Shown: one piece after another, positions 101 to 19,633 of the stretch
Layout of the letters: every line of letters starts with the position of its first letter
How positions within the stretch are numbered: the stretch's first letter is position 1
IMG/VR virus record: IMGVR_UViG_3300006810_000424
Coordinates: 1-22,825 of that record
From: a virus
Direction: 5' to 3' (one strand)
DNA: 22,825 bases
The notes under the pieces: model-generated
Told to the model about the DNA's origin: nothing
Database searches by the model: none
What the model saw: the letters and a program-made list of their open reading frames with translations, nothing else
Made by a program: the position numbers and the translations under genes

Positions 101-167
101 AAAAAAAATCTGAGAAAATCTGAAAATGCTGTTGCAAGCCCTACGGGATTGTGCCTACAATGTCGTC
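101..167 (+). promoter_or_regulatory. Promoter cassette copy A (leaderless type)
   Basis: An A8 tract (101-108) is followed by TCTGAGAAAATCTGAAAA, then a -35 box TTGCAA (132-137), an 18-bp spacer containing CTACGGGATTGTG, and a -10 box TACAAT (156-161). The ATG at 168 lies six bases beyond the -10 box, where a sigma-70-type polymerase would normally start RNA, so the mRNA should begin at or next to the start codon. The A tract could act as an UP element. The same layout recurs three more times in the window. Confidence 0.8.
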
Positions 168-365
168 ATGAACAACAACACCAACACCACACCCAACAAG
201 ACCCGTGAGTTCATCATCAAGATCCGTTGCGACCGGCGCATCTACAACGAGTCGGTCTACACGATCAGCACCGAGCACGCTTGGGGTCACCAAGCCCAGT
301 TGGAAGCCCAGTATGAGCGTGACTACGGGTACCGTGCCCGTGTGATCAGCGTCAGGGAGGCGTGA
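168..365 (+). CDS. Small hypothetical protein, leaderless
   Basis: A 65-residue protein of unknown function. The reading frame is open further upstream, but the start at 168 is preferred because it sits exactly where promoter copy A would begin transcription and because no Shine-Dalgarno site precedes it. The N-terminus is an Asn/Thr tract (MNNNTNTTPNKT), as in the other genes driven by this promoter type. The rest is polar and basic (FIIKIRCDRR) with no membrane segment. It is separated from the next gene by a hairpin-rich gap, so it is probably an independently controlled accessory gene inserted in the structural operon. I do not recognise a family. Confidence 0.7.
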   Translation: MNNNTNTTPNKTREFIIKIRCDRRIYNESVYTISTEHAWGHQAQLEAQYERDYGYRARVISVREA

Positions 366-379
366 TAGCCTGACTGGAA

Positions 380-448
380 ATGTGTTCGCCCAACCCGGCA
401 TGTGGGCAGTCATGTCGGGTTGGGCACCTGCCCACCAACTGCCACTAG
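380..448 (+). CDS. Possible 22-residue Cys-rich leader peptide
   Basis: A short reading frame with four Cys in 22 residues fills the gap between two genes, and its TAG stop overlaps the AGGAGA ribosome site of the next gene. It has no convincing ribosome site of its own. The overlapping hairpins would make it suitable as a leader peptide, but chance is an equally good explanation. Treat it as a candidate only. Confidence 0.15.
   Translation: MCSPNPACGQSCRVGHLPTNCH
389..434 (+). promoter_or_regulatory. Two overlapping, mutually exclusive hairpins
   Basis: Bases 389-397 (CCCAACCCG) pair perfectly with 416-424. Bases 421-425 (TGGGC) can instead pair with 430-434. The two stems share 421-424 and cannot form together. 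No T tract follows, so this is not a classical terminator. It may moderate transcription or protect RNA between the first small gene and the structural genes. Confidence 0.4.
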
Positions 449-460
449 GAGACAATCAAC

Positions 461-715
461 ATGGCACACGTCGTTGCAGCAGCGAACTGCACTACTGCCG
501 ACCAAAACGGCATCCGAGTCAGACTCACCGAAGGTGTTGTCTGGGATGCCAAAGATCCGTTCGTGATCTTTCGACCCGACCTGTTCCGTCCGCTGGAACC
601 CGGCGACAAGCAGCAGCGCACTGTGGAGCAGGCAACGTCGGCACCCGGCGAGAAGCGCAAGGCTGGTCGCCCACGCAAGACCGCTGAACCGACTCCTCCC
701 ATCAGCGAGTCGTGA
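461..715 (+). CDS. Small head-region protein with basic GRPRK tail
   Basis: An 84-residue protein with a good ribosome site (AGGAGA, 447-452). The core (RVRLTEGVVWDAKDPFVIFRPDLF) has the pattern seen in small proteins encoded just after the major capsid gene in many actinobacteriophages: a Val-rich strand, then an acidic D-P-x-V segment and an R-P-x-x-F motif. The C-terminal third is Pro/Lys-rich and includes KRKAGRPRKT, an AT-hook-like basic patch. Its stop overlaps the GTG of the following glycosyltransferase by four bases. A structural accessory or capsid-linked role is inferred from position; no enzyme motif is visible. Confidence 0.7.
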   Translation: MAHVVAAANCTTADQNGIRVRLTEGVVWDAKDPFVIFRPDLFRPLEPGDKQQRTVEQATSAPGEKRKAGRPRKTAEPTPPISES

Positions 716-1467
716 AAGGCAAGCCCGGAGAGTTCCCTCAACGACCACCCGACAAAGTGTGCGTGGCTTACGTTCACGGCACCGAAGTAGCCCACTCATG
801 GCATCAGTCGCTTATGGCTTTGATCTCCTATGACGTGGCACATAACCAGAGGGTGATCGGTGGAGGTTGGCTCGCAACCAAATATGGGACCGGTGGCATC
901 GTCCAAGCACGCAACAACACTGCACGCCAGTTCACCCACGACATGCCACACGTCGATTGGTTGTTGTGGATCGATACCGACATGGGGTTTGAAGCCAACG
1001 CCATCGACAGGTTGATGGAAGTCGCTCACCCAGAACGGGCACCGATTGTCGGTGGGCTGTGCTTCATGAACCGTGAAGTCGATGTCGATGGTGTCGGAGG
1101 TTTCCTCATCGAACCCGGACCCACCATCTTCGACTGGTTCGACAACGGTGAACAACACGGCTTCAAAGTCCGCAAGCAATATGAGCGTGACCAACTGTTG
1201 CAGTGCGCTGGCACCGGCTCAGCATTCGTGCTGATCCACAAATCGGTGTTCCAAAAGATTGAAGCCGAGTACGGACCATCATGGTATTCACCGATCTTCA
1301 ACCAGACGACCGGCACATGGATCAGTGAAGATCTGTCGCTCTGCACCCGTGCCAACGCCCTAGAAATGCCGGTGCATGTTCACACCGGAATCAAGACGAC
1401 ACATTTCAAACACATGTGGCTAGATGAACGCATCTACGACCGGTTGGATCCGATCTCAGATGAGTGA
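712..1467 (+). CDS. Glycosyltransferase, GT-A fold (family 2-like)
   Basis: A 251-residue protein predicted to transfer a sugar from a nucleotide-sugar donor. Residues 84-92 read LLWIDTDMG, giving the metal-binding DxD motif (D88, D90) at the end of a hydrophobic strand, as in GT-A enzymes. A later segment (GTGSAFVLIHKSVF, about 168-181) and an SEDLSLC segment resemble the acceptor-binding and catalytic acidic regions of family 2 enzymes, followed by a histidine-rich end (HVHTG, THFKH). The GTG start overlaps the previous stop, and the stop overlaps the next glycosyltransferase, so the two are co-translated. No membrane anchor is seen, so it should act in the cytoplasm. The acceptor is unknown; virion proteins are plausible given the location. 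Confidence 0.8.
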   Translation: MKGKPGEFPQRPPDKVCVAYVHGTEVAHSWHQSLMALISYDVAHNQRVIGGGWLATKYGTGGIVQARNNTARQFTHDMPHVDWLLWIDTDMGFEANAIDRLMEVAHPERAPIVGGLCFMNREVDVDGVGGFLIEPGPTIFDWFDNGEQHGFKVRKQYERDQLLQCAGTGSAFVLIHKSVFQKIEAEYGPSWYSPIFNQTTGTWISEDLSLCTRANALEMPVHVHTGIKTTHFKHMWLDERIYDRLDPISDE

Positions 1468-2122
1468 CATCGCTGTCATCGTTCCGGTGATGCGACGACC
1501 ACACAATGTGGATCGTCTGGTCGGCTCACTCAGAGCATCCACCGATCTTGCTGACATCTACTTCATCGTGGATCATGATGATGAGGCAGAGATGGAAGCC
1601 GTCATGGGGAATCCTGACTGTCAGATGATCGTGAACTATTCGCAGTCACGGACGTTCGCTACGAAATGCAATCTTGGCTATCGGGAGACGGACGAGCCGT
1701 GGTGTCTGTTCATCGGTGACGATGTGCAGTTTCATTCGGGTTGGGCTGATGAAGCGTTGGAGGTTGGAAGGTCAGGTGCGTTTGTGTCCACGAACGATTT
1801 GGGGAACAGGTCGGTGATGCAGGGCAGTCATGCCACTCATCCGATGATTGCTCGCTGGTGGCTAGATTCGCATGGTGCATCATGGGATGGGGCAGGCACT
1901 GTCTGTCATGAAGGGTACGGTCATTGGTATGTGGACAACGAGTGGACTGCTGTTGCCCGTAATGCTGGCCAGTTTCGGTTTGCTGCGAAAGCCGTGATTG
2001 AGCATCTGCATCCGATCTTCAACAAGGGTGTTGATGATGAGGTGTATCGGGTAGGTCAGGCAACAACTGGGATTGATCGCCGGTTGTGGTTCACTAGATC
2101 GGAAAGGTTCTCTAATGCATGA
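1460..2122 (+). CDS. Second glycosyltransferase-like protein
   Basis: A 220-residue protein starting with the typical family 2 strand-loop (IAVIVPVMRRPHNVDRLVGSL, residues 4-24) for nucleotide binding. FIGDDV at 84-89 is the DxD-like metal site after a hydrophobic strand, and HWYVDNEW and HLHP segments occupy the places of the acceptor and catalytic residues. It is shorter than most family 2 enzymes, so it may be a minimal catalytic domain. The ATG at 1460 is chosen because it gives an 8-base overlap with the preceding gene; a start at 1424 would overlap more. Its base composition shifts to G/T-rich compared with the first glycosyltransferase, so the two may have different origins. Confidence 0.75.
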   Translation: MSDIAVIVPVMRRPHNVDRLVGSLRASTDLADIYFIVDHDDEAEMEAVMGNPDCQMIVNYSQSRTFATKCNLGYRETDEPWCLFIGDDVQFHSGWADEALEVGRSGAFVSTNDLGNRSVMQGSHATHPMIARWWLDSHGASWDGAGTVCHEGYGHWYVDNEWTAVARNAGQFRFAAKAVIEHLHPIFNKGVDDEVYRVGQATTGIDRRLWFTRSERFSNA

Positions 2123-2618
2123 GCAAGCATTGAAGTGGGTTGCTGATTCTATTGATGGGATGGAGTTCGATTCAGTCGTGGAGTTGGGTGCCCGTGATGT
2201 GAACGGGTCAGTCAGATGGTTGTTTGACTGTGACCGGTACATCGCTGTTGATGTGGGTGATGGTCCCGGTGTTGATGTGGTGTGTGACGCTGCCGACTAT
2301 CTGCCAGATGAGCCGGTGGATTGTGTGGTGTCCACAGAAATGTTGGAGCACACCCCCCGTGCCCGTGACATCGTGTTCCAAGTGTTTGACATGTTGAAAC
2401 CCGGTGGGGTTTTTGTGATGACTGCTGCCGGTCCCGGTCGCCCTAGCCATTCCGCTATCGATGGGAAAGGTCTGCAACCCGGTGAGCATTACGCCAACAT
2501 CCATCCGGACGATCTCACCGACTGGCTCTCTGGCGCAGGGTTCGTGCGCTATCGTGTGGACGTACAACGCCGACCGGCAGACATCCGGTGCGTGGCGTAC
2601 AAACCTGAGGTGGATTGA
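2115..2618 (+). CDS. SAM-dependent methyltransferase (class I, type 11-like)
   Basis: A 167-residue protein with the class I Rossmann methyltransferase signature. Motif I is VVELGARDVNGS (about 18-29), the acidic SAM-ribose motif is YIAVDVGDG (about 38-46), motif IV is DCVVSTEMLEH (about 63-73) and the post-motif is LKPGGVFVMT. The length is that of a bare catalytic domain. It overlaps the preceding glycosyltransferase by eight bases and its stop overlaps the next start, so it belongs to the same transcription unit. The target is not evident; a small molecule, a glycan or a protein is more likely than DNA, because no DNA methylase motif such as NPPY is visible. Confidence 0.8.
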   Translation: MHEQALKWVADSIDGMEFDSVVELGARDVNGSVRWLFDCDRYIAVDVGDGPGVDVVCDAADYLPDEPVDCVVSTEMLEHTPRARDIVFQVFDMLKPGGVFVMTAAGPGRPSHSAIDGKGLQPGEHYANIHPDDLTDWLSGAGFVRYRVDVQRRPADIRCVAYKPEVD

Positions 2619-3669: not shown

Positions 3670-3678
3670 GAGTCAGAC

Positions 3679-3882: not shown

Positions 3883-3888
3883 CCTGAC

Positions 3889-5294: not shown

Positions 5295-5295
5295 G

Positions 5296-7761: not shown

Positions 7762-8966
7762 GCATCCTGCCAGCAGCGACCGAGGTTGCGGTCTATTTCG
7801 GTGACTCGCTCGCCTACGACAACAACGATGCCTATGAGGATTTGTTGCCGTTGTATTCCGGTGAAACCGGCACGTTGGTGACATCTGATGTTCGGCAGGT
7901 GTCGGTGCGTCGTGGACGTTCACGTTGGTTGGATCAAGCGCAGTCAGGCACCATGTCGGTGACGTTAGATAACCGTGCGAGAGCGTACGATCCGACATCC
8001 GGAGCCACTTACAGTTCTGCGATCACTCCTGCGAAACGAACGATTGCGTACACAGGTTCCACCATCATCTTCGACGGGAACATTGATGACTGGGATTTGA
8101 GTTACACGTTGGATGGTGACGCTGTGGCGTCGTTCGTTGCGTCTGACGTGTTATCTCGGTTGGGTCGCACCAAACTTGCTGCGCATACCGCCACTTCGCA
8201 GTTGTCGGGTGCTCGTGTGGACGCAGTGTTGGATCGTGCTGAGGTGGATTTCCCTGTGTCGCAACGAGCGATCGATGCTGGTGTGGAGACGTTGCAGGCT
8301 GACACAGTGAGTGAGGGGACTGGCGTGTTGCAGTATTTGCAGACGGTGACGCAAACCGAGTCGGGTCGTTTGTTTGTGTCTGCTGATGGTTTGTTGACGT
8401 TTCAGAATCGTCGCAGCACTATCGACACGGGTAGTGCGGTGTCGTTGACTGATGATGGTTCTGGTGTGCCGTTCGATCAGATCGAAATCATTGTTGGTTC
8501 TGATCTGTTGTATAACCGGGTGACGGTGACTCGTGAAGGTGGGACGGCGCAAACAGGGTCGAACACGGAGTCGCAGGATTTGTATGAGATTCGTGCGTTG
8601 GACATTTCTGGTTTGTTGTTCACGTCGGATGATGATGCGTTAGAGTTGGCTGGCTATTTGGCGAACCGGTTTGGTGATCCTGCGTTGCGGTTCGGTCGGG
8701 TGCAGGTGAATCTGGCTGCGTGTTCGACGGTGCAGGCGGATGCGGTGTTGGGTTTGGATTTGGGTTCGGCAGTGGAGGTGAAGTTCACTCCGACTGGTGG
8801 CGGTCCGCAGATTGACCGGTATGGGGTGGTGGAGAAGGTGGAGCACTCTATTGCGGTGGATGGCCATCGGGTAGCATTGTCGCTGTCGGAGATGACAACT
8901 AATCTTTTTGTGTTGGATGATGCCGCTTCGGGCCGGTTGGATACCGGTGGCGTGTTGGCGTACTGA
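7758..8966 (+). CDS. Minor tail protein (distal tail / hub type)
   Basis: A 402-residue protein directly after the tape measure gene, the usual place of distal tail and hub proteins. It opens with EVAVYFGDSLAYDNND, then a VTSDVRQVSVRRGRS segment and MSVTLDNRARAYDPT. The R-G-R-S and L-D-N-x-x-x-x-Y-D-P pattern is typical of actinobacteriophage minor tail proteins that build the base of the tail tip. The rest alternates beta strands with acidic loops. The GTG at 7758, with GGAGGG upstream and a GTGA overlap with the tape measure stop, is preferred over a TTG four codons earlier. Confidence 0.8.
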   Translation: MSILPAATEVAVYFGDSLAYDNNDAYEDLLPLYSGETGTLVTSDVRQVSVRRGRSRWLDQAQSGTMSVTLDNRARAYDPTSGATYSSAITPAKRTIAYTGSTIIFDGNIDDWDLSYTLDGDAVASFVASDVLSRLGRTKLAAHTATSQLSGARVDAVLDRAEVDFPVSQRAIDAGVETLQADTVSEGTGVLQYLQTVTQTESGRLFVSADGLLTFQNRRSTIDTGSAVSLTDDGSGVPFDQIEIIVGSDLLYNRVTVTREGGTAQTGSNTESQDLYEIRALDISGLLFTSDDDALELAGYLANRFGDPALRFGRVQVNLAACSTVQADAVLGLDLGSAVEVKFTPTGGGPQIDRYGVVEKVEHSIAVDGHRVALSLSEMTTNLFVLDDAASGRLDTGGVLAY

Positions 8967-8977
8967 GGAGTAGATGG

Positions 8978-9859
8978 ATGGCCACTAACTTTCCGGGTTC
9001 GTTGGATTCGTTCACGAATCCGTCTGCGACCGACAAGATGGATTCGGTGACGGTTCCTCATGCGTCGCAACATGCGAATCTGAACGACGCTGTTGAGGCT
9101 TTGGAAGCGAAGGTCGGTGCCGATTCATCTGCGGTCACCAGTTCGTTGGATTACAAGGTTTCCACGTTGGAAACAGATGTGGCTGCGTTGGAAACAGATG
9201 TGAGTGCGTTGGAAACAGATGTGACTGCGTTGGAAACTGGTTACCGGTATGTGCAGACGGTCTATTTCACTTCCTCCGGTACGTTCACGAAAGCGACTTA
9301 TTCGTGGTTGAGTGCTGTTCGTGTGAAGTGTCAGGGTGCTGGCGGCGGTGGTGGTGGTACCGATACCGATGACGAAGGTGCTGCCGGTGGCGGTGCAGGA
9401 GGTTACGCAGAACGGTTTATTGAGGCTTCAAGTTTGTCGGCGTCAGTAACTGTGACAGTTGGTAGTGGCGGTGCAGGTGGGGCTGTGAACACGGACATCG
9501 GGGGTTCTAACGGTGGTAACACGGGGTTCGGATCATATGCAACAGGCAATGGTGGCCTTGCAGGTGCAGGTACGGGGAGTGTCGGCGGTAACGGAGGTAA
9601 TGGTACGGCCACAGGTGGTCTTGTGATTCCCGGCAAACCCGGTGGCGGTGTAAATGTGATACCCGGTTTCGGTGGTGACGCTTTTCTCGGTCACGGAGGT
9701 TCACCAGTCGGAGCGCAAAACTCCACCACCGTACACAATAATCGCAAGGACGGTCGAAACTATGGTGGTGGCGGTGCTGGTGCATGGCAAAAAAGTGGCA
9801 CAGGTACGACCGGTGGTAATGGTGCCAACGGGATTGTCATCGTGGAGTTGTACGCATGA
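8978..9859 (+). CDS. Tail fibre / adhesin 1 with glycine-rich tip
   Basis: A 293-residue protein with three parts. Residues 1-60 are an attachment region (ATNFPGSLDSFTNP then HASQHANLNDAVEALE). Residues 61-90 are a short coiled coil of repeated LETDVxA heptads. Residues from about 95 to the end are a glycine-rich domain with GGGGGG, GGAGGYAERF and GTGTTGGNGANGIVIVE. Glycine-rich tips of this kind form polyglycine-helix receptor-binding domains in some phage adhesins. The protein probably sits at the tail tip and contacts the host surface. It ends with VELYA exactly as adhesin 2 does and overlaps a small partner gene by ATGA. Confidence 0.82.
   Translation: MATNFPGSLDSFTNPSATDKMDSVTVPHASQHANLNDAVEALEAKVGADSSAVTSSLDYKVSTLETDVAALETDVSALETDVTALETGYRYVQTVYFTSSGTFTKATYSWLSAVRVKCQGAGGGGGGTDTDDEGAAGGGAGGYAERFIEASSLSASVTVTVGSGGAGGAVNTDIGGSNGGNTGFGSYATGNGGLAGAGTGSVGGNGGNGTATGGLVIPGKPGGGVNVIPGFGGDAFLGHGGSPVGAQNSTTVHNNRKDGRNYGGGGAGAWQKSGTGTTGGNGANGIVIVELYA
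9165..9241 (+). repeat. 21-bp tandem repeat encoding coiled-coil heptads
   Basis: Three full copies and one partial copy of a 21-bp unit (CGTTGGAAACAGATGTG plus four bases) lie head to tail. Each encodes one heptad (A-L-E-T-D-V-x). Copies differ only at the variable bases, so the array looks recently expanded and could change the length of the fibre stalk by slippage. Confidence 0.85.
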
Positions 9860-10047
9860 GATACGCACTCGTTGATGCGGACGGTTTGGTTGTGAACGCC
9901 ATCGTATGGGACGGCGAAACCGACTACACACCTGCCGACGGACTGACCGTTGTTGCCATTCCTGATGAGATTAGTGCCGGTCTCGGTTGGACCTACGATG
10001 GCACGAACTGGATCGCACCACCCGTCGAAGATGAGGAGGTCATCTGA
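9260..10047 (+). repeat. Adhesin-tip plus partner cassette, copy 1
   Basis: The 600 bp encoding the glycine-rich domain, and the small gene after it, are homologous to 10440-11221 with a constant offset of 1180 bp. The first shared bases are TCTATTTCAC plus TCCTCCGGTACG and the junction TACGCATGAGATACGCACT is shared too. The N-terminal parts of the two adhesins are unrelated. Confidence 0.85.
9856..10047 (+). CDS. Small adhesin-partner protein 1
   Basis: A 63-residue protein (RYALVDADGLVVNAIVWDG then GWTYDGTNWIAPP). The V-V-N-x-I-V-W-D-G and G-W-x-Y-D-G-x-x-x-x-P-P motifs are common in small proteins encoded after tail-fibre genes and in the ends of fibre proteins themselves. It is translationally coupled to adhesin 1 (ATGA) and to the next gene (TGATG). 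A role as fibre-folding helper, or as a small tip subunit, is inferred from position. It is about 70% identical by eye to the product of 11036-11221. Confidence 0.75.
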   Translation: MRYALVDADGLVVNAIVWDGETDYTPADGLTVVAIPDEISAGLGWTYDGTNWIAPPVEDEEVI

Positions 10048-11039
10048 TGTCGAAACAGACGTTCACCGCAGGCAATGTCTTGACCGCAGCCGAAATGAAC
10101 TCGTTGCAAACCAATGACTACAACTGGACCGTCACCACCAAGACCGCCAGTTACACGCTCGCAGCAGGCGACGAAGGCACCCGGATCGTGATGAACAATG
10201 CCGGTGCCACCACCATCACCGTGGACGATGCAGTGTTCGCTGCTGGTGACACGGTATGGATTCACAATGTTGGTGCCGGTGCGTGCACGATTACGGCAGG
10301 GACTGCGACGGTGGACAGCAGCAGCGGTCTTGTCATCTCCCAGTACGGAGGAGGGCTGCTTTATTTCACGTCAGCGTCATCAGCGATCCTGTTCCCATCT
10401 GACAACGCAACCGGCACATCGTACTCCCTTGTTGAAACTGTCTATTTCACGTCCTCCGGTACGTTCACGAAAGCGTCCTACCCGTATCTACGTGCAGTGA
10501 AAGTGAAAGTTCAGGGTGGCGGTGGTGGCGGTGGTGGCACAGACACCGACCAGAGAGGTGGTGCCGGAGGTGGTGCCGGAGGTTATGCAGAACGGTTCAT
10601 CGTTGCCACGAGTTTATCGGCGTCGGAAACAGTGACAGTTGGCAGTGGTGGTTCAGGTGCGGCTGTGAATACGAACACTGCCGGTTCGAACGGTGGTAAC
10701 TCGTCGTTCGGATCGTTTGCAACCGGAAACGCCGGTGGTGCCGGTTCAGGTATCCAAGACATCGGTGGTAGCGGTGGGTCGGGTTCTGCGTCAGGTGGTC
10801 TTGTGGTCAGCGGCAAACCCGGTGGTGGTTCATATGTTTTGAGCGGTTTCGGTGGTGACGCTGTGCTCGGTCACGGAGGTTCACCGTCAGGAGAGTTCAA
10901 CTCTGCTGCTGCACACAACAACCGGAAAGACGGCAGGGATTTCGGTAGTGGTGGTGCTGGTGCGTGGAAACGTGCCGGGACAGGCACCACCGGCGGTGAT
11001 GGTGCTAACGGGATTGTGATTGTGGAGTTGTACGCATGA
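10047..11039 (+). CDS. Tail fibre / adhesin 2 with glycine-rich tip
   Basis: A 330-residue protein. Residues 1-125 form a domain unrelated to adhesin 1: FTAGNVLTAAEMNSLQTND (an attachment motif seen in tail-tip proteins) followed by strands such as YTLAAGDEGTRIVMNN and ACTITAGTATVDSSSG, a beta-type fold resembling phage receptor-binding or decoration modules. Residues 132-330 are the glycine-rich tip shared with adhesin 1, with substitutions concentrated in the loops between glycine runs. A strong GAGGAGG ribosome site precedes the ATG. The pair may give the virion two receptor specificities, or two subunits of one tip. Confidence 0.82.
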   Translation: MSKQTFTAGNVLTAAEMNSLQTNDYNWTVTTKTASYTLAAGDEGTRIVMNNAGATTITVDDAVFAAGDTVWIHNVGAGACTITAGTATVDSSSGLVISQYGGGLLYFTSASSAILFPSDNATGTSYSLVETVYFTSSGTFTKASYPYLRAVKVKVQGGGGGGGGTDTDQRGGAGGGAGGYAERFIVATSLSASETVTVGSGGSGAAVNTNTAGSNGGNSSFGSFATGNAGGAGSGIQDIGGSGGSGSASGGLVVSGKPGGGSYVLSGFGGDAVLGHGGSPSGEFNSAAAHNNRKDGRDFGSGGAGAWKRAGTGTTGGDGANGIVIVELYA

Positions 11040-11221
11040 GATACGCACTTGTTGATGTTGACGGTTTGGTTGTGAACGTGATCGTTTGGGATGGCGAGAC
11101 CGATTACATCCCCGACGATGGGTTGACTGCTGTCCCTGTTCCTGACGATGTTGTTGCTGGTCCCGGCTGGACGTTTGATGGCACCGACTGGATCGCACCG
11201 CCCTATTCGCCACATCAGTGA
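10440..11221 (+). repeat. Adhesin-tip plus partner cassette, copy 2
   Basis: Second copy of the duplicated cassette. Offsets at the start of the tip domain and at the start of the partner gene are both 1180 bp, so the 600-bp tip domain has no net insertion or deletion despite many substitutions. Confidence 0.85.
11036..11221 (+). CDS. Small adhesin-partner protein 2
   Basis: A 61-residue paralogue of the product of 9856-10047 (RYALVDVDGLVVNVIVWDG, GWTFDGTDWIAPP). Differences cluster in the middle (IPDDGLTAVPVPDDVVAGPG) and the last residues, which read YSPHQ here and an acidic EDEEVI in copy 1. It overlaps adhesin 2 by ATGA. Keeping both the tip and its own partner in each copy suggests that each partner is matched to its adhesin. 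Confidence 0.75.
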   Translation: MRYALVDVDGLVVNVIVWDGETDYIPDDGLTAVPVPDDVVAGPGWTFDGTDWIAPPYSPHQ

Positions 11222-11310
11222 TGTTTGATCGTCCACGCACGTCGTGGGAACAGACAGGAATGACGGTCGGGGAGCACACCGACGCACGACCCATCAACTG
11301 GGGACACTAG
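11221..11310 (+). CDS. Possible 29-residue small protein
   Basis: A short frame (MFDRPRTSWEQTGMTVGEH and on) starts on the stop codon of the preceding gene (TGATG) and ends in a TAG just before the endolysin start. It fills the gap exactly, which favours translation by coupling, but it has no ribosome site and no recognisable family. It could also be non-coding; a small hairpin (CCACG with CGTGG) lies at its beginning. Confidence 0.4.
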   Translation: MFDRPRTSWEQTGMTVGEHTDARPINWGH

Positions 11311-11319
11311 GATGTTGTC

Positions 11320-12054
11320 ATGAGTCGTCGGTACACCGGTTGGGATAGTAACGCCACGAGCAGGCGTGCCGGTTTGGAGAAACTAGTTGACCTGTGCGAG
11401 CAGTATTTTGGTGTGTGGAACAACGGCACTTGGGGTGTCCGTAAGAAGCGTGGGAAGAGCAGCAGCAGCGTTCACGGTACGGGTAGGGCTGCTGACCTTT
11501 CGTGGCGTGGCGCACCTCACCGGGGCACCGGCAACTATCACGACGCTCTCCGCATGATGGAGTTCCTGACCCGACCCGATGTCGCCGATGCTCTCGGCAT
11601 TGAAGCAGTGTTTGACTACTACCCGAAGCCTTATGGTCGTGGTTGGAAGTGTGATCGTGCTGCGTGGCAGGTGTATTCGAAGCCTGCGTTTTCTGGTGCG
11701 CCCGGTGGCGACTGGGTGCACGTTGAGATCTCTAACGAGCACGCCGACGATCCGAACTACATCAACCATTGGTTCATGTATCTGATCGGAGACATGCCAG
11801 CAACCGCTGCCCCTGCCCCTGCAACGGCTCCGGAGGTGACACCGATGCGTGCCTATCCCGGCACATCGCTACGTCGTGGCAGCAAGGGTGACCATGTGAA
11901 GATGGTGCAACAGGTTGTCGGTGCCTACGCCGACGGTGACTTCGGACCGAAAACGGAGCAGGCAGTCAAAACGTGGCAGGCTGCTCATGCCGATCAGGTC
12001 GGTCCTGCCGACGGGATCGTTGGCCCACGCACATGGGCTGCGATGTTCCCGTGA
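11320..12054 (+). CDS. Endolysin: M15-like peptidase with PG-binding domain
   Basis: A 244-residue peptidoglycan hydrolase. The N-terminal domain (1-150) has the zinc site of M15 / VanY-type peptidases: SVHGTGRAAD, giving H52 and D59, and DWVHVEI with H134. These enzymes cut the peptide stems or cross-bridges of the cell wall. A Pro/Ala linker (about 160-170) leads to a C-terminal peptidoglycan-binding type 1 domain (LRRGSKGDHVKMVQQVVG, DGDFGPKTEQAVKTWQ, DGIVGPRTWAAM). There is no signal peptide, so a holin is needed, and holin-like genes follow. AGGA at 11309-11312 may serve as ribosome site, but the same bases form a -10-like TAGGAT. Confidence 0.9.
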   Translation: MSRRYTGWDSNATSRRAGLEKLVDLCEQYFGVWNNGTWGVRKKRGKSSSSVHGTGRAADLSWRGAPHRGTGNYHDALRMMEFLTRPDVADALGIEAVFDYYPKPYGRGWKCDRAAWQVYSKPAFSGAPGGDWVHVEISNEHADDPNYINHWFMYLIGDMPATAAPAPATAPEVTPMRAYPGTSLRRGSKGDHVKMVQQVVGAYADGDFGPKTEQAVKTWQAAHADQVGPADGIVGPRTWAAMFP

Positions 12055-12057
12055 CCA

Positions 12058-13395
12058 GTGCGTAACCGGCTCCTCACCGTCTGCCAACTGGCGTTGGCGA
12101 TCCTGTTCACGTTCGCCATCTTCGCCCCCATCACAGTCAACGCATCCACCTACACGGTCGCCGAAGAATCTGATTGGTACTTCACCCTCACCGAAGATTC
12201 ACAAGTCATCATCTACGGCAACAGTGACGCCGGGTGCAACGAGTTCTCTACCGACCCGTACCTGTGGCTCTACGACTCTGACGGGACGTTGATAGCGCAG
12301 GACGACGACAGCAATCACAACACGCAAGATCAGTGTGTGTCATCGAAGATTTACACGACGCTGGTGGTCGGTGACTACCGAATCCGTGCCGGGTACTGCT
12401 GTTCGATTCGTGGGTTGGGATCGAACCCGTACAACGATCTGACCTACACGCTGGTTCTAGACTTTGAAGCATGGCAAGGAACCACGACGACGACGAGCAC
12501 GACGACGACGGTGGCTCCTACTACGTCAACATCGACAACATCAACATCCACGACGACGGCACCGTCCACATCGACAACGACGAGCACGAGCACCACTTCC
12601 ACATCGTCAACATCAACGACGACGACGAGCACGACGACGACGGCACCGTCCACATCGACAACGACGACGAGCACGACGACGACGGTGCCGATGACGACGA
12701 CCACTTCGACTGGTCCACCGTCTACGACTACGACAGTTGAACCACCACCCCCACCCCCACCGCCTCCACCGCCCCCTCCTCCACCGGCAACCACGACGAC
12801 AACAACGGTTGTCACCACAACGACCACAACCAGCACGACGACGACGACGTTGCCACCGACCACAACAACGGTGACCACCACAACAACGCTGCCCCCAACC
12901 ACCACGCTTCCTCCGACCACCACCACGATTCCTCCGACGACCACTGTCGTCACCACCACAACCATCGCCCCCACCACCACAACCGTCGCCCCCACCACCA
13001 CGATCACCACAACCAGTGTCAAACCGACACCCTCCACCGACGCACCACCACTCGCCCCCCAACAGATCGCCCAGATCGCCGACCCCGAAGTTCAACAAGC
13101 AGTCATCGACATCATCGACAACCCTGAGGACATCACCGTCGATGAAGCCCGATCAATCTTCACCGCCATTGACACGTTGGAACCAGACACCATCACCGTC
13201 ATCGTGGATGCCCTCTCCCAAGCCTCCGACGACGTGAAACAAGAGTTCCAACAAGCCGTCAACATCTTCGACGGAGCATTCGACAACTATGTGCCAACCG
13301 GCTCCACCATCGATGTCGGCGCCCGACGCACCATCACCGCCACGTCTGTCATAATCAGTGGAGTACCGACCGTGACTGCCAGACGGAAAACATGA
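12058..13395 (+). CDS. Secreted protein with Thr-rich and polyproline stalk
   Basis: A 445-residue protein predicted to be exported. A signal peptide (basic MRNR, hydrophobic LALAILFTFAIFAP, likely cut after VNA at 29) precedes an acidic beta-type domain (30-137) with YTVAEESDWYFTLTEDSQV, paired cysteines and GDYRIRAG, resembling bacterial pre-peptidase (PPC-like) domains. Residues 139-325 are almost only Thr, Ser and Pro, with 15 consecutive prolines. The last 115 residues are a helical acidic domain ending in FDNYVPTGSTIDVGARR. The GTG is four bases after the endolysin stop. It is likely a surface or lysis-associated protein taken from a host; no enzyme motif is visible. Confidence 0.75.
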   Translation: MRNRLLTVCQLALAILFTFAIFAPITVNASTYTVAEESDWYFTLTEDSQVIIYGNSDAGCNEFSTDPYLWLYDSDGTLIAQDDDSNHNTQDQCVSSKIYTTLVVGDYRIRAGYCCSIRGLGSNPYNDLTYTLVLDFEAWQGTTTTTSTTTTVAPTTSTSTTSTSTTTAPSTSTTTSTSTTSTSSTSTTTTSTTTTAPSTSTTTTSTTTTVPMTTTTSTGPPSTTTTVEPPPPPPPPPPPPPPPATTTTTTVVTTTTTTSTTTTTLPPTTTTVTTTTTLPPTTTLPPTTTTIPPTTTVVTTTTIAPTTTTVAPTTTITTTSVKPTPSTDAPPLAPQQIAQIADPEVQQAVIDIIDNPEDITVDEARSIFTAIDTLEPDTITVIVDALSQASDDVKQEFQQAVNIFDGAFDNYVPTGSTIDVGARRTITATSVIISGVPTVTARRKT

Positions 13396-15503: not shown

Positions 15504-15544
15504 TCTGAGGGTCGCCGGGTTTGTTGGTTGGCTCGGTCGGGGTG

Positions 15545-15580
15545 TGCCCACCTGCTCTTACCTCCGGAGCAGGTCGGGCA
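15545..15580 (+). promoter_or_regulatory. Bulged stem-loop after the nuclease gene
   Basis: Bases 15545-15557 pair with 15567-15580 over 13 bp with one bulged C. The 9-base loop is TTACCTCCG. No T tract follows; an A8 tract begins 15 bases later and belongs to the next promoter. It probably terminates or stabilises the upstream transcript. The rest of 15504-15594 holds nothing I can identify. Confidence 0.5.
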
Positions 15581-15593
15581 ACCCTGAACCCCC

Positions 15594-15661
15594 CCAAAAA
15601 AAATCTGAGAAAGTTTGCCCAGAGTGTTGACATCTACGGGAATGTGTATATACTTGGGTAC
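15594..15661 (+). promoter_or_regulatory. Promoter cassette copy B (leaderless type)
   Basis: A8 (15596-15603) plus TCTGAGAAAG is followed, 23 bp after the A tract, by a consensus -35 TTGACA (15627-15632), a 16-bp spacer with CTACGGGAATGTG, and -10 TATACT (15649-15654). The ATG is seven bases beyond. It is almost identical to copy C (three differences in 95 bp). Confidence 0.85.
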
Positions 15662-15688
15662 ATGAACAACACCACCAACACCACCAAC
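15594..15688 (+). repeat. 95-bp direct repeat, copy 1
   Basis: This segment and 17299-17393 match at 92 of 95 positions, covering the whole promoter and the first nine codons of the driven gene. The sequence diverges immediately afterwards, so a promoter-plus-start unit has been duplicated. Confidence 0.9.
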
Positions 15689-15826
15689 GCCCTCACCGAT
15701 CTCATCAATGGCATGATCGCCGAGCGTCGCCAGTTCGCTGCCGACAACGGTTTCGTTGCCACCGATCAGGAGATCGCCGACCACATCAAGGCCAGCCTGA
15801 TCCGGATGATGAAGGGAGGCAAGTGA
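15662..15826 (+). CDS. Small hypothetical protein, leaderless
   Basis: A 54-residue protein. The start at 15662 coincides with the expected RNA start of promoter B; longer versions would run back through the promoter. After MNNTTNTTN, the sequence is helical and amphipathic (LTDLINGMIAERRQFAADNG, DQEIADHIKASLIRMMKGG). The Q-E-I-A-D-H-I helix has a faint HTH look, but this is not secure. The stop overlaps the ATG of the next gene (TGATG), so the two are translated together. Unknown function. Confidence 0.75.
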   Translation: MNNTTNTTNALTDLINGMIAERRQFAADNGFVATDQEIADHIKASLIRMMKGGK

Positions 15827-16131
15827 TGAGCAACACCACCTTCACTCCCGACCCCGACGGCTACGCCGAAACCTTCATCACCAAGTACGACCTGAACGAC
15901 CACAGCGCAAAGGTCATCCGCAACTATCAGCGAGCGATCTTCAACTATGTGATGGCAAAGCGTGACGGTGACTACACGCTCGCCGACCGCTACGCCAAGA
16001 CCGCCCAGTCCCTCACTCCGGTGGCCTACTACCGCAGCCGTGGCTGGAACCGGGTCGGTGGCGAGCCCATCCACGAGGCCACGGTCACCCGGTTCCGTGA
16101 CGAGGTGCTTCGCATGGTTGTCCAGTTCTGA
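15826..16131 (+). CDS. Small hypothetical protein, coupled second gene
   Basis: A 101-residue protein. The ATG at 15826 is favoured over a GTG one codon earlier by GGGAGG at 15814-15819. Polar and aromatic-rich, with helices (HSAKVIRNYQRAIFNYVMAK) and AYYRSRGWNRVGGEPIHEAT near the end. No membrane segment, cysteine pair or catalytic motif is visible. It is the second gene of the two-gene unit driven by promoter B. Function unknown. Confidence 0.7.
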   Translation: MSNTTFTPDPDGYAETFITKYDLNDHSAKVIRNYQRAIFNYVMAKRDGDYTLADRYAKTAQSLTPVAYYRSRGWNRVGGEPIHEATVTRFRDEVLRMVVQF

Positions 16132-16134
16132 TGG

Positions 16135-16171
16135 TTGACACCCCCCACCATTGATGGTTAGATGTGACCCT
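16135..16171 (+). promoter_or_regulatory. Promoter E, sigma-70 type
   Basis: A consensus -35 TTGACA (16135-16140), 17-bp spacer and -10 TTAGAT (16158-16163) stand eight bases before the ATG at 16172. It lacks the A tract and the CTACG motif of copies A-D but has the same leaderless geometry. The -10 is identical to that of copy D. Confidence 0.75.
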
Positions 16172-16378
16172 ATGTCTACTGCCGAATATCAACGCCAATG
16201 GCGAGCCAAACACGGAGCCAACACCGGCAAAATCGGGAGACCGATCAGCGCACCCTGTGGCACCGTGTCCGCATACAAACGTCACACACGCAACCAGCAG
16301 CCACCCTGCCAACAATGCCGTGAGGCGTGGGCTGCATACCAACGACAGCGATACCACTCACGGAAGGCCGACCAGTGA
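16172..16378 (+). CDS. Small Cys-motif protein (CGT...C-x2-C family)
   Basis: A 68-residue basic protein. The segment PCGTVSAYKRHTRNQQPPCQ followed by QCREAWAAYQRQR matches a pattern common in actinobacteria and their phages: C-G-T or H-G-T, x-x-x-Y-x-x-H, then a C-x2-C-R-x-A pair and an Arg-rich helix. It may bind a metal ion and nucleic acid. A diverged relative is encoded at 22556-22759. The ATG is eight bases after the -10 of promoter E with no ribosome site. Its stop overlaps the GTG of the next gene. Confidence 0.7.
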   Translation: MSTAEYQRQWRAKHGANTGKIGRPISAPCGTVSAYKRHTRNQQPPCQQCREAWAAYQRQRYHSRKADQ

Positions 16379-16611: not shown

Positions 16612-16799
16612 GCATCGTCCGTTGTTTGAACTGTGACCACACCTTCCTGTCACCCGGTGCCTACATGCACCCATCCCACCGTTGCCCACACATCAAGATT
16701 TCACCGGCACTGCCCCCGGTGAGGTCAACACCATCGACGACGCACAGCAACCTCATTGATGGTGTTGACCGCTTCCGCAGAGAAAGAGAAACACAATGA
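16608..16799 (+). CDS. Small putative zinc-binding protein
   Basis: A 63-residue protein starting SIVRCLNCDHTFLSPGAYMH. The C-x2-C pair (about 6 and 9) and the later H-P-S-H-R-C-P-H cluster could bind one zinc ion in a C2H2- or treble-clef-like fold. The second half is Ser/Thr/Pro-rich and then basic (RFRRERETQ). GTGA overlap before and ATGA overlap after place it in one operon with its neighbours. Role unknown, possibly nucleic-acid binding. Confidence 0.6.
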   Translation: MSIVRCLNCDHTFLSPGAYMHPSHRCPHIKISPALPPVRSTPSTTHSNLIDGVDRFRRERETQ

Positions 16800-16963
16800 T
16801 CATGTATGCCAAAGACTCATCCCCAACCATCACGAAACAGGTGGTGAACAACATCATCGATGCGATGAACGATGCGAACGTCACCGTCATCAACATCGCC
16901 ACGTTGCAACAGATCGTTGCCGAATGTGATCGGACGATTGCCGAGCAGGTGAAGATGCGATGA
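16796..16963 (+). CDS. Small hypothetical protein (55 residues)
   Basis: A 55-residue protein too short for most gene finders. It reads MIMYAKDSSPTITKQVVNNI, then an amphipathic helix region (NVTVINIATLQQIVAECDRT). The ATG overlaps the previous stop and its own stop overlaps the next ATG (ATGA), and the upstream AGAAAGAGAAA may help ribosome binding. Dense coupling on both sides is the main evidence that it is real. No family is recognised. Confidence 0.65.
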   Translation: MIMYAKDSSPTITKQVVNNIIDAMNDANVTVINIATLQQIVAECDRTIAEQVKMR

Positions 16964-17313
16964 CCCCGGCATCGATCAAGGCGAAAGGTCGGAACGCTGA
17001 GAACATGTTCGTCAAGTTCCTGTCGGCGTGGTGGCCGTCGGTGGAGCGTCGCCGGTTGGCTGGTGTGCATGATCGTGGCGACATCGCTGGTGTGCCGGAC
17101 ACGGTGGTGGAGGTGAAGTCTGGTGCGAAGTTGGATCTGCCCGGATGGTTGCGTGAGTTGGAGGTGGAGATGGCGAACGATGGTGCCCGGTTCGGGTGTG
17201 TCGCTGTGAAACCTCGTGGCGGGACGGACGGGTCATGGTTCTACTGTGTGATGACTGGTGCCCAGTTCGTGGAGTTACTTCGGGCTGCTCAGGGGTCTCC
17301 AAAAAAAATCTGA
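16960..17313 (+). CDS. Holliday junction resolvase-like PD-(D/E)xK nuclease
   Basis: A 117-residue protein with the compact PD-(D/E)xK pattern of archaeal-type resolvases: KAKGRNAENMF with E14, then RGDIAGVPDTVVEVKSG with D41, E51 and K53. Such enzymes cut branched DNA during recombination or packaging. A W-L-R-E-L-E helix and a substrate strand (FGCVAVKPRG) follow. The gene is strikingly G/T-rich at third positions while its neighbours are A/C-rich, which suggests a separate origin. Its last codons and stop (PKKI then TGA) lie inside the A tract of promoter C. Confidence 0.85.
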   Translation: MTPASIKAKGRNAENMFVKFLSAWWPSVERRRLAGVHDRGDIAGVPDTVVEVKSGAKLDLPGWLRELEVEMANDGARFGCVAVKPRGGTDGSWFYCVMTGAQFVELLRAAQGSPKKI

Positions 17314-17366
17314 AAAAGTTTGCTCAGGGTGTTGACATCTACGGGAATGTGTATATACTTGGGTAC
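17299..17366 (+). promoter_or_regulatory. Promoter cassette copy C (leaderless type)
   Basis: A8 (17301-17308), 23 bp, -35 TTGACA (17332-17337), 16-bp spacer with CTACGGGAATGTG, -10 TATACT (17354-17359), then seven bases to the ATG at 17367. The A tract and TCTGA also form the end of the upstream resolvase gene. Confidence 0.85.
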
Positions 17367-17393
17367 ATGAACAACACCACCAACACCACCAAC
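17299..17393 (+). repeat. 95-bp direct repeat, copy 2
   Basis: Second copy of the promoter-plus-start unit at 15594-15688. The three differences all lie between the A tract and the -35 box; the core promoter and first nine codons are identical. Confidence 0.9.
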
Positions 17394-17618
17394 CACATCA
17401 ACCTCAACGACCTTGACATGGCCGCGCTCCGCGCAGGTCGCACCAAAGGCATGGACAGCGTGTTCATGGTCGTCGGTCGGCTCTCCGACTGGGCCAACGG
17501 CCACCGCACCGCCGAGGACATGAACGACCTGCGTGACTCGCTCAACGAGTTCAAGGCCAACGCTGCCAAGATCATCGCCCTCGCTGAGCAGGCTCTTGCC
17601 GAAGGCGAGGTGAAGTGA
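17367..17618 (+). CDS. Small hypothetical helical protein, leaderless
   Basis: An 83-residue protein with the same first nine residues as the product of 15662-15826 (MNNTTNTTN) and nothing else in common. The rest is a run of helices (DMAALRAGRTKGMDSVFMVV, TAEDMNDLRDSLNEFKANAA) ending in AEQALAEGEVK. It is acidic and without cysteine. The start is fixed by promoter C. The stop overlaps the ATG of the next gene (TGATG), as in the copy B unit. Function unknown. Confidence 0.75.
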   Translation: MNNTTNTTNHINLNDLDMAALRAGRTKGMDSVFMVVGRLSDWANGHRTAEDMNDLRDSLNEFKANAAKIIALAEQALAEGEVK

Positions 17619-17857
17619 TGAGCACCAACCCGAACAGCAGCATCCCAGAGGGAGTGCAGACACTCGCTCTTGACATGGCTCGGTCCTACCGGACTGCCAA
17701 CAGCGATGAGGACCGCATCAAGACAGACGCACACATGAGCGCACTGATCGCAACGGTCCGACGTTACGGAGCCAACCACGACGACCTCATGGAACTCGGA
17801 CGCAAGATGGACGAACTGTCCGGTCCGATCGAAGTGCTACCACCAGTCACCAACTGA
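17618..17857 (+). CDS. Small hypothetical protein, coupled second gene
   Basis: A 79-residue helical protein (VQTLALDMARSYRTANSDED, THMS-type helix then LIATVRRYGANHDDLMELGR). The ATG at 17618 is taken as start because it overlaps the previous stop; GAGGTG lies shortly upstream. No motif is recognised. It ends just before a GC-rich hairpin, so it is probably the last gene of the promoter C unit. Confidence 0.68.
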   Translation: MSTNPNSSIPEGVQTLALDMARSYRTANSDEDRIKTDAHMSALIATVRRYGANHDDLMELGRKMDELSGPIEVLPPVTN

Positions 17858-17863
17858 TCTACC

Positions 17864-17885
17864 GTGGGGGGCGCAAGCCCCCCAC
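17864..17885 (+). terminator. GC-rich stem-loop, possible terminator without T tract
   Basis: A perfect 9-bp stem (GTGGGGGGC with GCCCCCCAC) closed by a GCAA tetraloop. It is very stable, but the bases after it are ACCACTCAACG, so it lacks a T tract. It may act as a weak terminator or RNA end protector between the promoter C unit and the lysozyme-like gene. Confidence 0.55.
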
Positions 17886-17907
17886 CACTCAACGAGAGGG
17901 GAACTCA

Positions 17908-18474
17908 ATGATCCGCTACCTGATACTCACCATCGCCCTGCTCATCGGCTTCTGGGTCGAAGGATCCGACGACGCAGAACTCGCACAAGACCGACCACCA
18001 GTCCCAGTCACCGTCTACCAACACCCCACGTTGGACACCACCACCACCGTCGTGCCGACACCTGTCCGCTCTGTGGAGATCACCGCCGAAGTCGTGTGGG
18101 CGGACGAGCAACGAGAACCGGCACCACCAGCCACCATCCCACAGATGATGACCCGATGCCCTGAGTGGCAGAGCGAAGCACTCGCACAAGGCTGGCCAGC
18201 AGACCCGACGTTGCTCGCCAAACTGGATCGGGTCATCTACCGGGAATCACGATGCGACCCCACCCAACACAACCCTGACGACCCGATGGGAGGATCCCAC
18301 GGACTCACCCAAATCAACGGGTTCTGGTGTCGCCCTACCCAATACTGGCCAGATGGCTGGCTGCAACACCACGACAACCTGCTGACCTGCGATGACCTGT
18401 ATCACCCCCCAACTAATCTGCGAGCCACCCTTCTCATCTGGCACAACTCCGGATGGGCACCGTGGGGACTCTGA
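17908..18474 (+). CDS. Secreted or anchored lysozyme/transglycosylase-like protein
   Basis: A 188-residue protein. An N-terminal hydrophobic segment (MIRYLILTIALLIGFWV) acts as signal peptide or anchor, followed by a Pro/Thr/Val-rich linker (about 25-80). The C-terminal domain has the transglycosylase/lysozyme signature: VIYRESRCDP with the likely catalytic E113, then GGSHGLTQING at 128-138 and a W-x-P-x-x-W-rich end. It would act on peptidoglycan outside the membrane. The ribosome site GAGAGGG is good. It lies outside the lysis region, so local wall opening, superinfection control or a second lysis activity are options. Confidence 0.72.
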   Translation: MIRYLILTIALLIGFWVEGSDDAELAQDRPPVPVTVYQHPTLDTTTTVVPTPVRSVEITAEVVWADEQREPAPPATIPQMMTRCPEWQSEALAQGWPADPTLLAKLDRVIYRESRCDPTQHNPDDPMGGSHGLTQINGFWCRPTQYWPDGWLQHHDNLLTCDDLYHPPTNLRATLLIWHNSGWAPWGL

Positions 18475-18499
18475 CCAACGGAGGCAACATGATCATCAC
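18453..18499 (+). repeat. 47-bp direct repeat, copy 1
   Basis: Covers the last codons and stop of the lysozyme-like gene, the GGAGG ribosome site and the ATG of the following micro-frame. It matches 18533-18579 at 45 of 47 positions. Confidence 0.9.
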
Positions 18500-18554
18500 G
18501 ACCATCTACGACAACGACTGGGATCACGGCGCATGGGCACCGTGGAGACTCTGA
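18489..18554 (+). CDS. Possible 21-residue micro-protein
   Basis: A 21-residue frame (MIITTIYDNDWDHGAWAPWR, last residue L) with a GGAGG ribosome site five bases upstream. Its end WAPWRL copies the end WAPWGL of the lysozyme-like protein because of the direct repeat. It may be a real micro-protein or only a by-product of the duplication. Confidence 0.35.
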   Translation: MIITTIYDNDWDHGAWAPWRL

Positions 18555-18579
18555 CCAACGGAGGCAACATGACCATCAC
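18533..18579 (+). repeat. 47-bp direct repeat, copy 2
   Basis: Second copy, 80 bp downstream of the first. It provides the ribosome site and first codons of the gene at 18569. The 33 bp between the copies are not repeated. Confidence 0.9.
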
Positions 18580-18820
18580 CGACATCCTCATCATCATCGG
18601 CACATCAACCGTCGCTCTCGTCATCCTGACGTGGATCAAAAACCGGTTGCCAGCCCACCCACAAATCCACGACGAACGACATCAGATTCAACGGCTCGCC
18701 ACACTGCTCGCCGACATGGAGGTACGGAACCGAAGGTTGGAGAACACGATCACCGAGTTGCACGCCGAAACGAACCGGATGGAAGCACTGATCCGTGAAC
18801 AGTACGGAGATCAGCCGTGA
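18569..18820 (+). CDS. Single-pass membrane protein with coiled coil
   Basis: An 83-residue protein. Residues 4-22 (TDILIIIGTSTVALVILTW) are a membrane helix, and the remainder is a charged coiled coil (LATLLADMEVRNRRLENTIT, ELHAETNRMEALIREQYG). The GGAGG at 18560-18564 fixes the start. The topology resembles 14036-14242 and, formally, inner-membrane spanin subunits, but an actinobacterial host would lack the outer membrane a spanin acts on. Its position after a wall-degrading enzyme suggests a shared envelope function. Confidence 0.68.
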   Translation: MTITDILIIIGTSTVALVILTWIKNRLPAHPQIHDERHQIQRLATLLADMEVRNRRLENTITELHAETNRMEALIREQYGDQP

Positions 18821-18981
18821 CCCAGTTCGGAATCATCTACAACGACGACGACGAGAACACCTGCACCATCATCGAAACCGACGACGGTATCCGGTGGGAA
18901 CCGGTGTGTGTCACAACACATCAGTGGGCGACCGTGATCCGGCAGGCACTCGCAGAAATCTCAGCCAGAAAGTACGAGTAG
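18817..18981 (+). CDS. Small acidic hypothetical protein
   Basis: A 54-residue protein (MTQFGIIYNDDDENTCTIIE, DDGIRWEPVCVTTHQW). A GTGA overlap with the previous gene supports translation. Beta strands followed by a C-terminal helix (VIRQALAEISARKYE) suggest a compact fold. No family is recognised. Confidence 0.65.
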   Translation: MTQFGIIYNDDDENTCTIIETDDGIRWEPVCVTTHQWATVIRQALAEISARKYE

Positions 18982-18994
18982 AGAGGGAAACCAA

Positions 18995-19234
18995 ATGACT
19001 GAGCCGGACAATCTGTTGGACGAGTTGCGTGACTTGGTGATAATCAGACGAGCATCAGCATCCAGAACCGAGCCAATGACCCTGTTCCTTGAACGGTTGG
19101 AGAAGGAACTGTCTGAGTGTTACGAACTGCTCGCCTTCGCCCGGAACCATGCGAACTACTCGCAGTCACAGCAGTGGCGTGACTGGGCGCACCGGCTGGA
19201 TCAACTGATCCCTGATGTGGGTCCGTATCTGTGA
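18995..19234 (+). CDS. Small hypothetical helical protein
   Basis: A 79-residue, mostly helical protein (LLDELRDLVIIRRASASR, LFLERLEKELSECYELLAFA, WRDWAHRLDQLIPDVG). The ribosome site AGAGGG precedes the ATG by eight bases. It overlaps the next GTG by four bases. No membrane helix or catalytic motif is seen; function unknown. Confidence 0.65.
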   Translation: MTEPDNLLDELRDLVIIRRASASRTEPMTLFLERLEKELSECYELLAFARNHANYSQSQQWRDWAHRLDQLIPDVGPYL

Positions 19235-19359
19235 GCCGGATCACATCGATCTGGCGGTGTCCTGCGTGCGGACAAACCATCACGCTGCTCATTACACCAG
19301 CCACCCCACCCACCTGTTCACGTCACACAGGTGGTGGGAGACGCATGGAAAAAATCTGA
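19231..19359 (+). CDS. Very small putative zinc-ribbon protein
   Basis: A 42-residue protein (MSRITSIWRCPACGQTITLL, then TPPTCSRHTGG). C-P-A-C-G is half of a zinc ribbon, and the later C-x2-H could complete it. The GTG overlaps the previous stop (GTGA). The last codons MEKI and the stop lie inside the A tract of promoter D. A hairpin (19310-19317 with 19327-19334) is within the coding region. Confidence 0.5.
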   Translation: MSRITSIWRCPACGQTITLLITPATPPTCSRHTGGGRRMEKI

Positions 19360-19402
19360 GAAAAGAGTTGCAAGCCCTACGCCAATCTGGTTAGATGTGT
19401 GT
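19349..19402 (+). promoter_or_regulatory. Promoter cassette copy D (leaderless type)
   Basis: A6 (19349-19354) and TCTGAGAAAA, 13 bp from the A tract to the -35 TTGCAA (19368-19373), 17-bp spacer starting GCCCTACG as in copy A, -10 TTAGAT (19391-19396), and six bases to the ATG at 19403. The A tract is 10 bp closer to the -35 than in copies A-C, one helical turn. Confidence 0.8.
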
Positions 19403-19633
19403 ATGACCAACAACAGCAACACCACAAAGGCCCGTCAGACCGGCACCCACGTCACCCTCACCGAGGGCGACGACCTGCCGTGGATGCTCGTCTGCGACGA
19501 GCACGGAGGCTGCTGCGAGTTCGAGACCAAGCGTGAAGCGATCCACCACCGTTCGTCACCCATCGACTGGTGCGAGTGGTGTGCAGACAACTGGCGTGGC
19601 ACCGACTACGCCGGACCGATCCTGACCAACTGA
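19403..19633 (+). CDS. Small Cys/His-rich protein, leaderless
   Basis: A 76-residue protein starting MTNNSNTTKARQTGTHVTLT. Two Cys/His clusters follow: CDEHGGCC (about 31-38) and HHRSSPIDWCEWC (about 49-61). Together they could bind one or two zinc ions. The middle alternates Cys with acidic and aromatic residues. The start is set by promoter D; the frame is open further back but would include the promoter. It may be an early host-takeover or nucleic-acid-binding protein, which is inference from size and promoter only. Confidence 0.72.
   Translation: MTNNSNTTKARQTGTHVTLTEGDDLPWMLVCDEHGGCCEFETKREAIHHRSSPIDWCEWCADNWRGTDYAGPILTN

Follow-up and report, generated by a model that had tools for sequence, protein, structure and literature searches.

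Results

Promoters that adjoin the start codons of small phage genes

The IMG/VR virus record IMGVR_UViG_3300006810_000424, a linear stretch of 22,825 bases (the window) that is probably a fragment of a larger genome, contains four copies of a promoter cassette, each running directly into the ATG of a small gene. A preliminary description of this DNA had delimited the copies and predicted that they give rise to leaderless mRNAs; all four are present. The sequence AAAAAATCTGA occurs exactly at 103, 15598, 17303 and 19349, with an extra one-mismatch copy at 113 inside cassette 1; these 5 matches at one mismatch compare with 0.18 expected and were reached in 0 of 100 shuffles. The cassettes, the genes that they precede and the hairpins described below 5' of cassettes 1 and 2 are all on the plus strand.

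Cassette 1 (101–170) is composed of A8TCTGAGAAAATCTGA, TTGCAA (132–137), CTACG, TACAAT (156–161), 6 nucleotides (nt) and the ATG at 168, and thus reads TTGCAA-18-TACAAT. Cassette 2 (15594–15664) carries A8TCTGAGAAAG, TTGACA (15627–15632), CTACG, TATACT (15649–15654), 7 nt and the ATG at 15662. Cassette 3 (17299–17369, ATG at 17367) is a near-copy of cassette 2, sharing 94% identity with it across 102 nt, between the A-tract and about codon 9, and divergent beyond. The RusA-like gene at 16960–17313 has its stop codon in cassette 3, as the TGA within TCTGA. Cassettes 2 and 3 share TTGACA-16-TATACT with the ATG after 7 nt, and these two promoters are the only 11-of-12 sigma-70 matches in the window (0/100 shuffles). 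Cassette 4 (19349–19405) comprises A6TCTGAGAAAAG, TTGCAA (19368–19373), CTACG, TTAGATG and the ATG at 19403; its promoter can be read as TTGCAA-18-TAGATG with the ATG after 5 nt, or with a 17-nt spacer and TTAGAT, 6 nt before the ATG.

A fifth promoter, missed in the preliminary description, lies at 16135–16174 (TTGACA 16135–16140, 18-nt spacer, TAGATG 16159–16164, 7 nt, ATG 16172). It has the geometry of the cassettes without A-tract or CTACG; therefore the feature common to all five starts is the geometry and not the decorated cassette. The -35 and -10 hexamers, set 16–18 base pairs (bp) apart, have the layout of SigA/sigma-70-type promoters. A loose, cassette-independent pattern (TTG with 4 of 6 -35 positions, spacer of 16–18, TA with 3 of 6 -10 positions, 5–7 nt, ATG) finds exactly five sites on the coding strand of the window, at 168, 15662, 16172, 17367 and 19403, and 0 sites on its opposite strand. 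In 1000 shuffles the mean was 0.41 and the maximum 4, a figure that measures rarity and is not a blind test, as the thresholds were set after all five sites had been seen and 16172 had already been noticed by eye.

The gene on cassette 1 (g168, 168–365) encodes 65 amino acids (aa), with no Pfam match and a non-significant PHROG match. Cassette 2 leads into a 54-aa gene (MNNTTNTTN..., 15662–15826) without significant family match, followed by a second gene, g15826 (15826–16131), which is led by a Shine-Dalgarno (SD) site, GGGAGG. An 83-aa gene (17367–17618) stands on cassette 3; cassette 4 precedes a 76-aa gene (g19403, 19403–19633) and an SD-led (AGGAG) second gene (19663–19989). The fifth promoter serves a 68-aa gene (g16172, 16172–16378) that matches phrog_12112 (E 1.1e-8) and, weakly, DUF3039; the alignment to WhiB-like PHROG profiles of phages covers their C-terminal portion and does not take in the WhiB domain itself. 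The product also has a C..C/H-rich motif, GRP-CGT-AY-RH-C..C, and may bind zinc. Family searches of the small genes gave nothing significant apart from this partial WhiB-like match, and an Rfam search gave no match.

Start codons without SD sites

As the preliminary description had it, the four cassette starts lack an SD site: their SD energies range from -1.4 to -2.7 kcal/mol. The five starts together, none with an SD site, span -1.4 to -3.5 kcal/mol; at the 28 other starts of the window, most of which carry an SD, the median is -7.35 kcal/mol (Mann-Whitney p = 0.002). At all five the -10 hexamer begins 11–13 nt 5' of the start codon, cassette 4 and the fifth promoter fitting when read as TAGATG. 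A gap of 6 nt after the -10 is expected to put +1 on the A of the start codon. A usual bacterial initiator has a pyrimidine at -1 and a purine at +1. If the A of the ATG is numbered +1, a C or T stands at -1 in 16/16 ATG-anchored promoters (from the window and 11 relatives), compared with 13/28 other window starts; this is expected if that A is the first transcribed base and lends the prediction indirect support.

At the five starts, the first 50 nt of coding sequence show little secondary structure (p = 0.002) and an enrichment in A and C (p = 0.001; p = 0.016 within the small-gene region). In E. coli, CA repeats after the start enhance leaderless and leadered translation alike (PMC9031893), and SD-led genes of the window also often begin CA-rich. 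The CA-rich first codons are therefore supportive of leaderless initiation, not specific to it.

The same genes with and without an SD site

The strongest evidence that the ATG adjoining the -10 box is the true start, and that a leader is not used, comes from genes that change place between the window and related contigs. g168 sits bare on its -10 box in the window; its homologue in L028 (58/63 residues identical) comes second and is led by an AAGGAG SD (-9.3 kcal/mol). Conversely, g15826 is second and SD-led (-14.1 kcal/mol) in the window, and its L159 homologue (67/101) comes first, bare on TAGAAC-6-ATG. The first, bare gene of L155 is 74/79 identical to the second, SD-led gene of L159, and the promoters of these two contigs are near-identical. 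In these three pairs the internal gene has an SD and the first gene has none. A fourth gene, g16172, stands bare on a -10 box in the window and in L112, L113 and L161; in L146 and L147 its homologues are SD-led, at starts that lack the cassette.

Unrelated gene bodies also share their first codons: nine in the genes on cassettes 2 and 3, and six in L155 and L159. This sharing shows that the first codons belong to the repeat unit, which consists of promoter, start codon and CA-rich first codons and is fused in frame to differing gene bodies.

Conservation in related contigs

Absence of the cassette from close relatives had been named beforehand as an outcome that would speak against the prediction. 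Instead, cassette 1 is present in L028 (91% identical), L010, L017 and L103, in each case after the same terminator as in the window. This terminator (64–96, a hairpin with a T5 run, GGGTCGGGTGCTTCGGCACCCGACCTTTTT, folding at -30.2 kcal/mol) lies directly 5' of cassette 1, past the capsid gene. A diverged form is recognizable in L163 and L040 (~70%), where AAATAATCTGAGAAAG and TTGACT-17-TAGAAC follow the exonuclease gene and the ATG comes after 6 nt. In L155, L159, L157, L112, L113 and L161 other promoters occupy the same place, with the ATG 6–7 nt past the -10 (9 nt in L161). Across the 16 ATG-anchored promoters the ATG lies 5–7 nt from the -10 (9 in L161) and the intervening bases vary. A long, terminator-like hairpin without a T run (15505–15593, -48.8 kcal/mol) separates the exonuclease gene from cassette 2, and hairpin-forming sequences were seen by eye at the corresponding position in L112, L115, L155 and L163.

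Scanning the whole collection with the cassette motif gave 19 matches, of which just L010 and L017 are genuine and the remainder look like chance; L103 was recovered by a scan for the terminator plus A-tract. An unbiased, group-wide tally of -10-to-ATG distances over every related locus lacked power: at 6 nt, the opposite strand yielded about as many cases. The argument is carried instead by the pattern test in the window and the gene-swap pairs. A different multi-copy promoter family was seen in an unrelated phage, L070, where three AAAAAAATCTGA-TTGACA-type promoters on the minus strand (~8864–12600) each precede a GTCAAGAG motif and a leader of greater length.

A model for the cassettes and its alternatives

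We propose, with a probability of about 0.82, that the elements are phage promoters of the SigA/sigma-70 type that give leaderless first genes and have spread as a unit of promoter, start and first codons. Sequence statistics, conservation and the gene swaps in related contigs all back the preliminary prediction of a promoter with a leaderless start. In this model the A-tract would act as an UP-like element upstream of the promoter, and the -10 box would be placed so that transcription begins on the A of the ATG or 1–2 bases before it. Within each small transcription unit, the leading gene would be translated from a leaderless mRNA and later genes via SD sites. What was duplicated and spread would be the promoter together with the start codon and the first CA-rich codons, new small genes being fused to it in frame behind the start codon, as a leaderless start requires. 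We infer the transcription start site, the use of the main host sigma factor and the role of the A-tract. Taken together, the data would describe an ordinary SigA-type leaderless start architecture of the actinobacterial kind, organized as an unusual repeated, portable cassette. A more far-reaching version, in which promoter, leaderless start and CA-rich N-terminus travel together as a gene-capture unit and accessory genes are swapped by in-frame fusion, losing the SD when first and keeping it when second, is offered only tentatively. The term regulon, used in the preliminary description, is unproven; the common motif may stem from duplication or from ordinary promoter constraint.

Several observations weigh against the leaderless model. 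The 16 promoters are mutually related and hand-chosen, and counts on them are not independent. A host was sought in 84,980 genomes with the exonuclease, both as a single sequence and as an alignment, and no match was found. Other observations would fit real promoters that produce short-leadered mRNAs, with transcription starting upstream or at another site and translation using a weak or distant SD or a downstream in-frame ATG. The L115 homologue of g19403, 67% identical, has the same -35 and CTACG (TTGACA...CTACGGG) but a leader of ~45 nt; in L028, L010, L017 and L103 an in-frame ATG with a GAGGAGG SD follows 42 nt past the cassette ATG, and either might be the start in use; and in L155, L159 and L163 a GAGG just 5' of the -10, which the mRNA would exclude only if the predicted +1 is correct, might serve as a distant SD if transcription starts upstream. 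We nevertheless regard short leaders as quite unlikely: the five starts of the window have neither an SD nor a second, SD-led ATG of the kind found in relatives, in the four gene pairs the SD seen in one setting is missing where the gene stands directly on a promoter, and the spacing is kept while the flanks diverge.

Conservation could alternatively be driven by regulation rather than by leaderless translation, the cassette being an operator-type site for a phage repressor or activator. TCTGAGA and CTACG are kept between copies while neighbouring bases vary. In each of the four cassettes CTACG stands exactly 10 nt 5' of the -10, its distance to the -35 being 1 or 3 nt, and the 10-nt distance is kept in all promoters of the cassette lineage except L115; this fixed spacing may mark a regulator site. 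However, the element contains no palindrome, no regulator was identified, and CTACG is absent from L163, L155, L157, L112 and the fifth promoter, all of which keep the start geometry. As the driver of conservation an operator is an unlikely, though not far-fetched, explanation, and such an element can coexist with leaderless starts. It is highly improbable that A-tracts containing TCTGA are a widespread phage-specific promoter element. AAAAATCTGAGA precedes TTGACA in 55 viral stretches, with distance peaks at 6–9 and 16–18 nt, but a permuted control word (AAAAACTTGAGA), whose count is a lower bound, occurs no less often and has its peaks at 6–7 and 15–16 nt; the phasing thus belongs to A-tracts generally, as in UP-like elements, and not to TCTGA. 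In the cassettes, too, the A-tract stands at two distances from the -35 that differ by one helical turn (8 and 18 nt from TCTGA), and its position and this general phasing in viral promoters fit an UP-like effect of A-tracts that gives TCTGA no special role. A reading of the A-tracts as T-runs of opposite-strand terminators was rejected as next to impossible: a minus-strand hairpin with T8 does exist at 15604–15623, but such hairpins are absent in cassettes 1 and 4 (-1.0 and 0.0 kcal/mol) and no clear opposite-strand gene lies there.

Genomic setting

The window encodes a siphophage structural block with head-tail connectors, a tape measure protein (PhageMin_Tail, E 2e-49), tail proteins and an endolysin-like protein. 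Directly 5' of cassette 1 ends the gene for the major capsid protein, recognized from its complete form in L028 (Phage_capsid, E 2.3e-36); cassette 1 is located within the structural block and not in an obvious early block. Expression as soon as infection starts, raised as a possibility in the preliminary description, is a guess that this position does not support. Downstream of the structural genes follow an exonuclease (phrog_284), small genes, the RusA-like nuclease, a second exonuclease and a short gene without assigned function. The best isolate match of the first exonuclease is Actinomycetia phage DSL-LC01 (61% identical). The second is closest to proteins of Corynebacterium, Streptomyces, Mycobacterium and Gordonia phages, with matches mostly to Mycobacterium and Streptomyces phages. 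The virus probably infects actinobacteria, judging from protein similarities. The actinobacterial setting assumed in the preliminary description thus finds indirect backing in the exonucleases and the WhiB-like PHROG match, and the genome search supplied no host to go with it.

Other features of the window lie apart from the cassettes. At 712–2618, in the interval from the capsid gene to the head-tail connectors, lie a glycosyltransferase-like gene (recognized by eye, without Pfam match) and methyltransferase-domain genes; genes of these kinds are unusual at such a location. Tandem glycine-rich, tail-fibre-like genes at 9250–9881 and 10430–11061, ~76% identical and each followed by a small MRYALVD gene, can be read as a duplicated adhesin-type module. 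The stretch 12058–13395 encodes a long Thr/Pro-rich protein and has a dense ACC/GAC repeat; it also stays open in other frames and on the opposite strand. At 18438–18586 a 69-nt direct repeat (84%, copies 80 bases apart) reaches from the end of one gene into the beginning of the following gene, whose SD and ATG it contains.

Discussion

The comparative evidence suggests that one phage gene can switch between a leaderless and an SD-led start depending on where in the operon it lies, and how small accessory genes may gain expression in uncultured actinophages. Gene callers that rely on SD sites may misplace the starts of such genes or miss them. A literature text search for AAAAAATCTGA returned no paper relevant by title, and a repeated leaderless cassette with shared N-terminal codons was not described in the papers searched, most of the subscription literature lying outside that search.

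Among phage elements the nearest parallel is provided by the ESAS and SAS of cluster K mycobacteriophages, likewise a multi-copy intergenic sequence of ~50 bp with SigA-like -35 and -10 hexamers before small accessory genes (PMC11373665; PMC3203893, in part). In ESAS, an imperfect inverted repeat of 15–17 bp lies within a motif of 46–50 bp, and the 13-bp SAS, located 3–9 bp before the start, is conserved beyond the ribosome-binding site (PMC11373665; PMC3203893, in part). The cassettes have no conserved inverted arms, a hairpin occurring just in cassettes 2 and 3, and the place of the SAS and its ribosome-binding site is taken by the -10 box, with no SD. Unlike the leader-borne SAS, the cassette start is predicted to be leaderless. 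Gene 90 of Adephagia, coding for a HicB-like antitoxin, is also an actinophage gene predicted to be leaderless, but has a single promoter and no repeated cassette (PMC11373665). Lambda cI and leaderless genes of P2 are further phage genes on leaderless mRNA without a repeated cassette family (mentioned in PMC4633059). mRNAs that combine a 5'-terminal AUG with an SD-led start have been described in E. coli (PMC4965119); L010, L017, L028 and L103, where an SD-led ATG follows in frame after the cassette ATG, match this arrangement, whereas in the window no second SD-led ATG follows the cassette ATG.

In actinobacteria, TANNNT ~12 bp upstream of the start marks leaderless genes and is found in ~19% of genes (PMC3160421), and in mycobacteria a 5'-terminal ATG or GTG is necessary and sufficient for leaderless translation (PMC4633059). 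The starts described here resemble these genes in having a -10 directly before the start codon, no SD, and proximal genes that would be leaderless with distal genes SD-led (PMC3160421; PMC4633059). They differ in residing in a phage and in forming a multi-copy repeat of promoter, start and N-terminus. Leaderless genes are well known in actinobacterial hosts; the repeated cassette with shared first codons is a variant of them.

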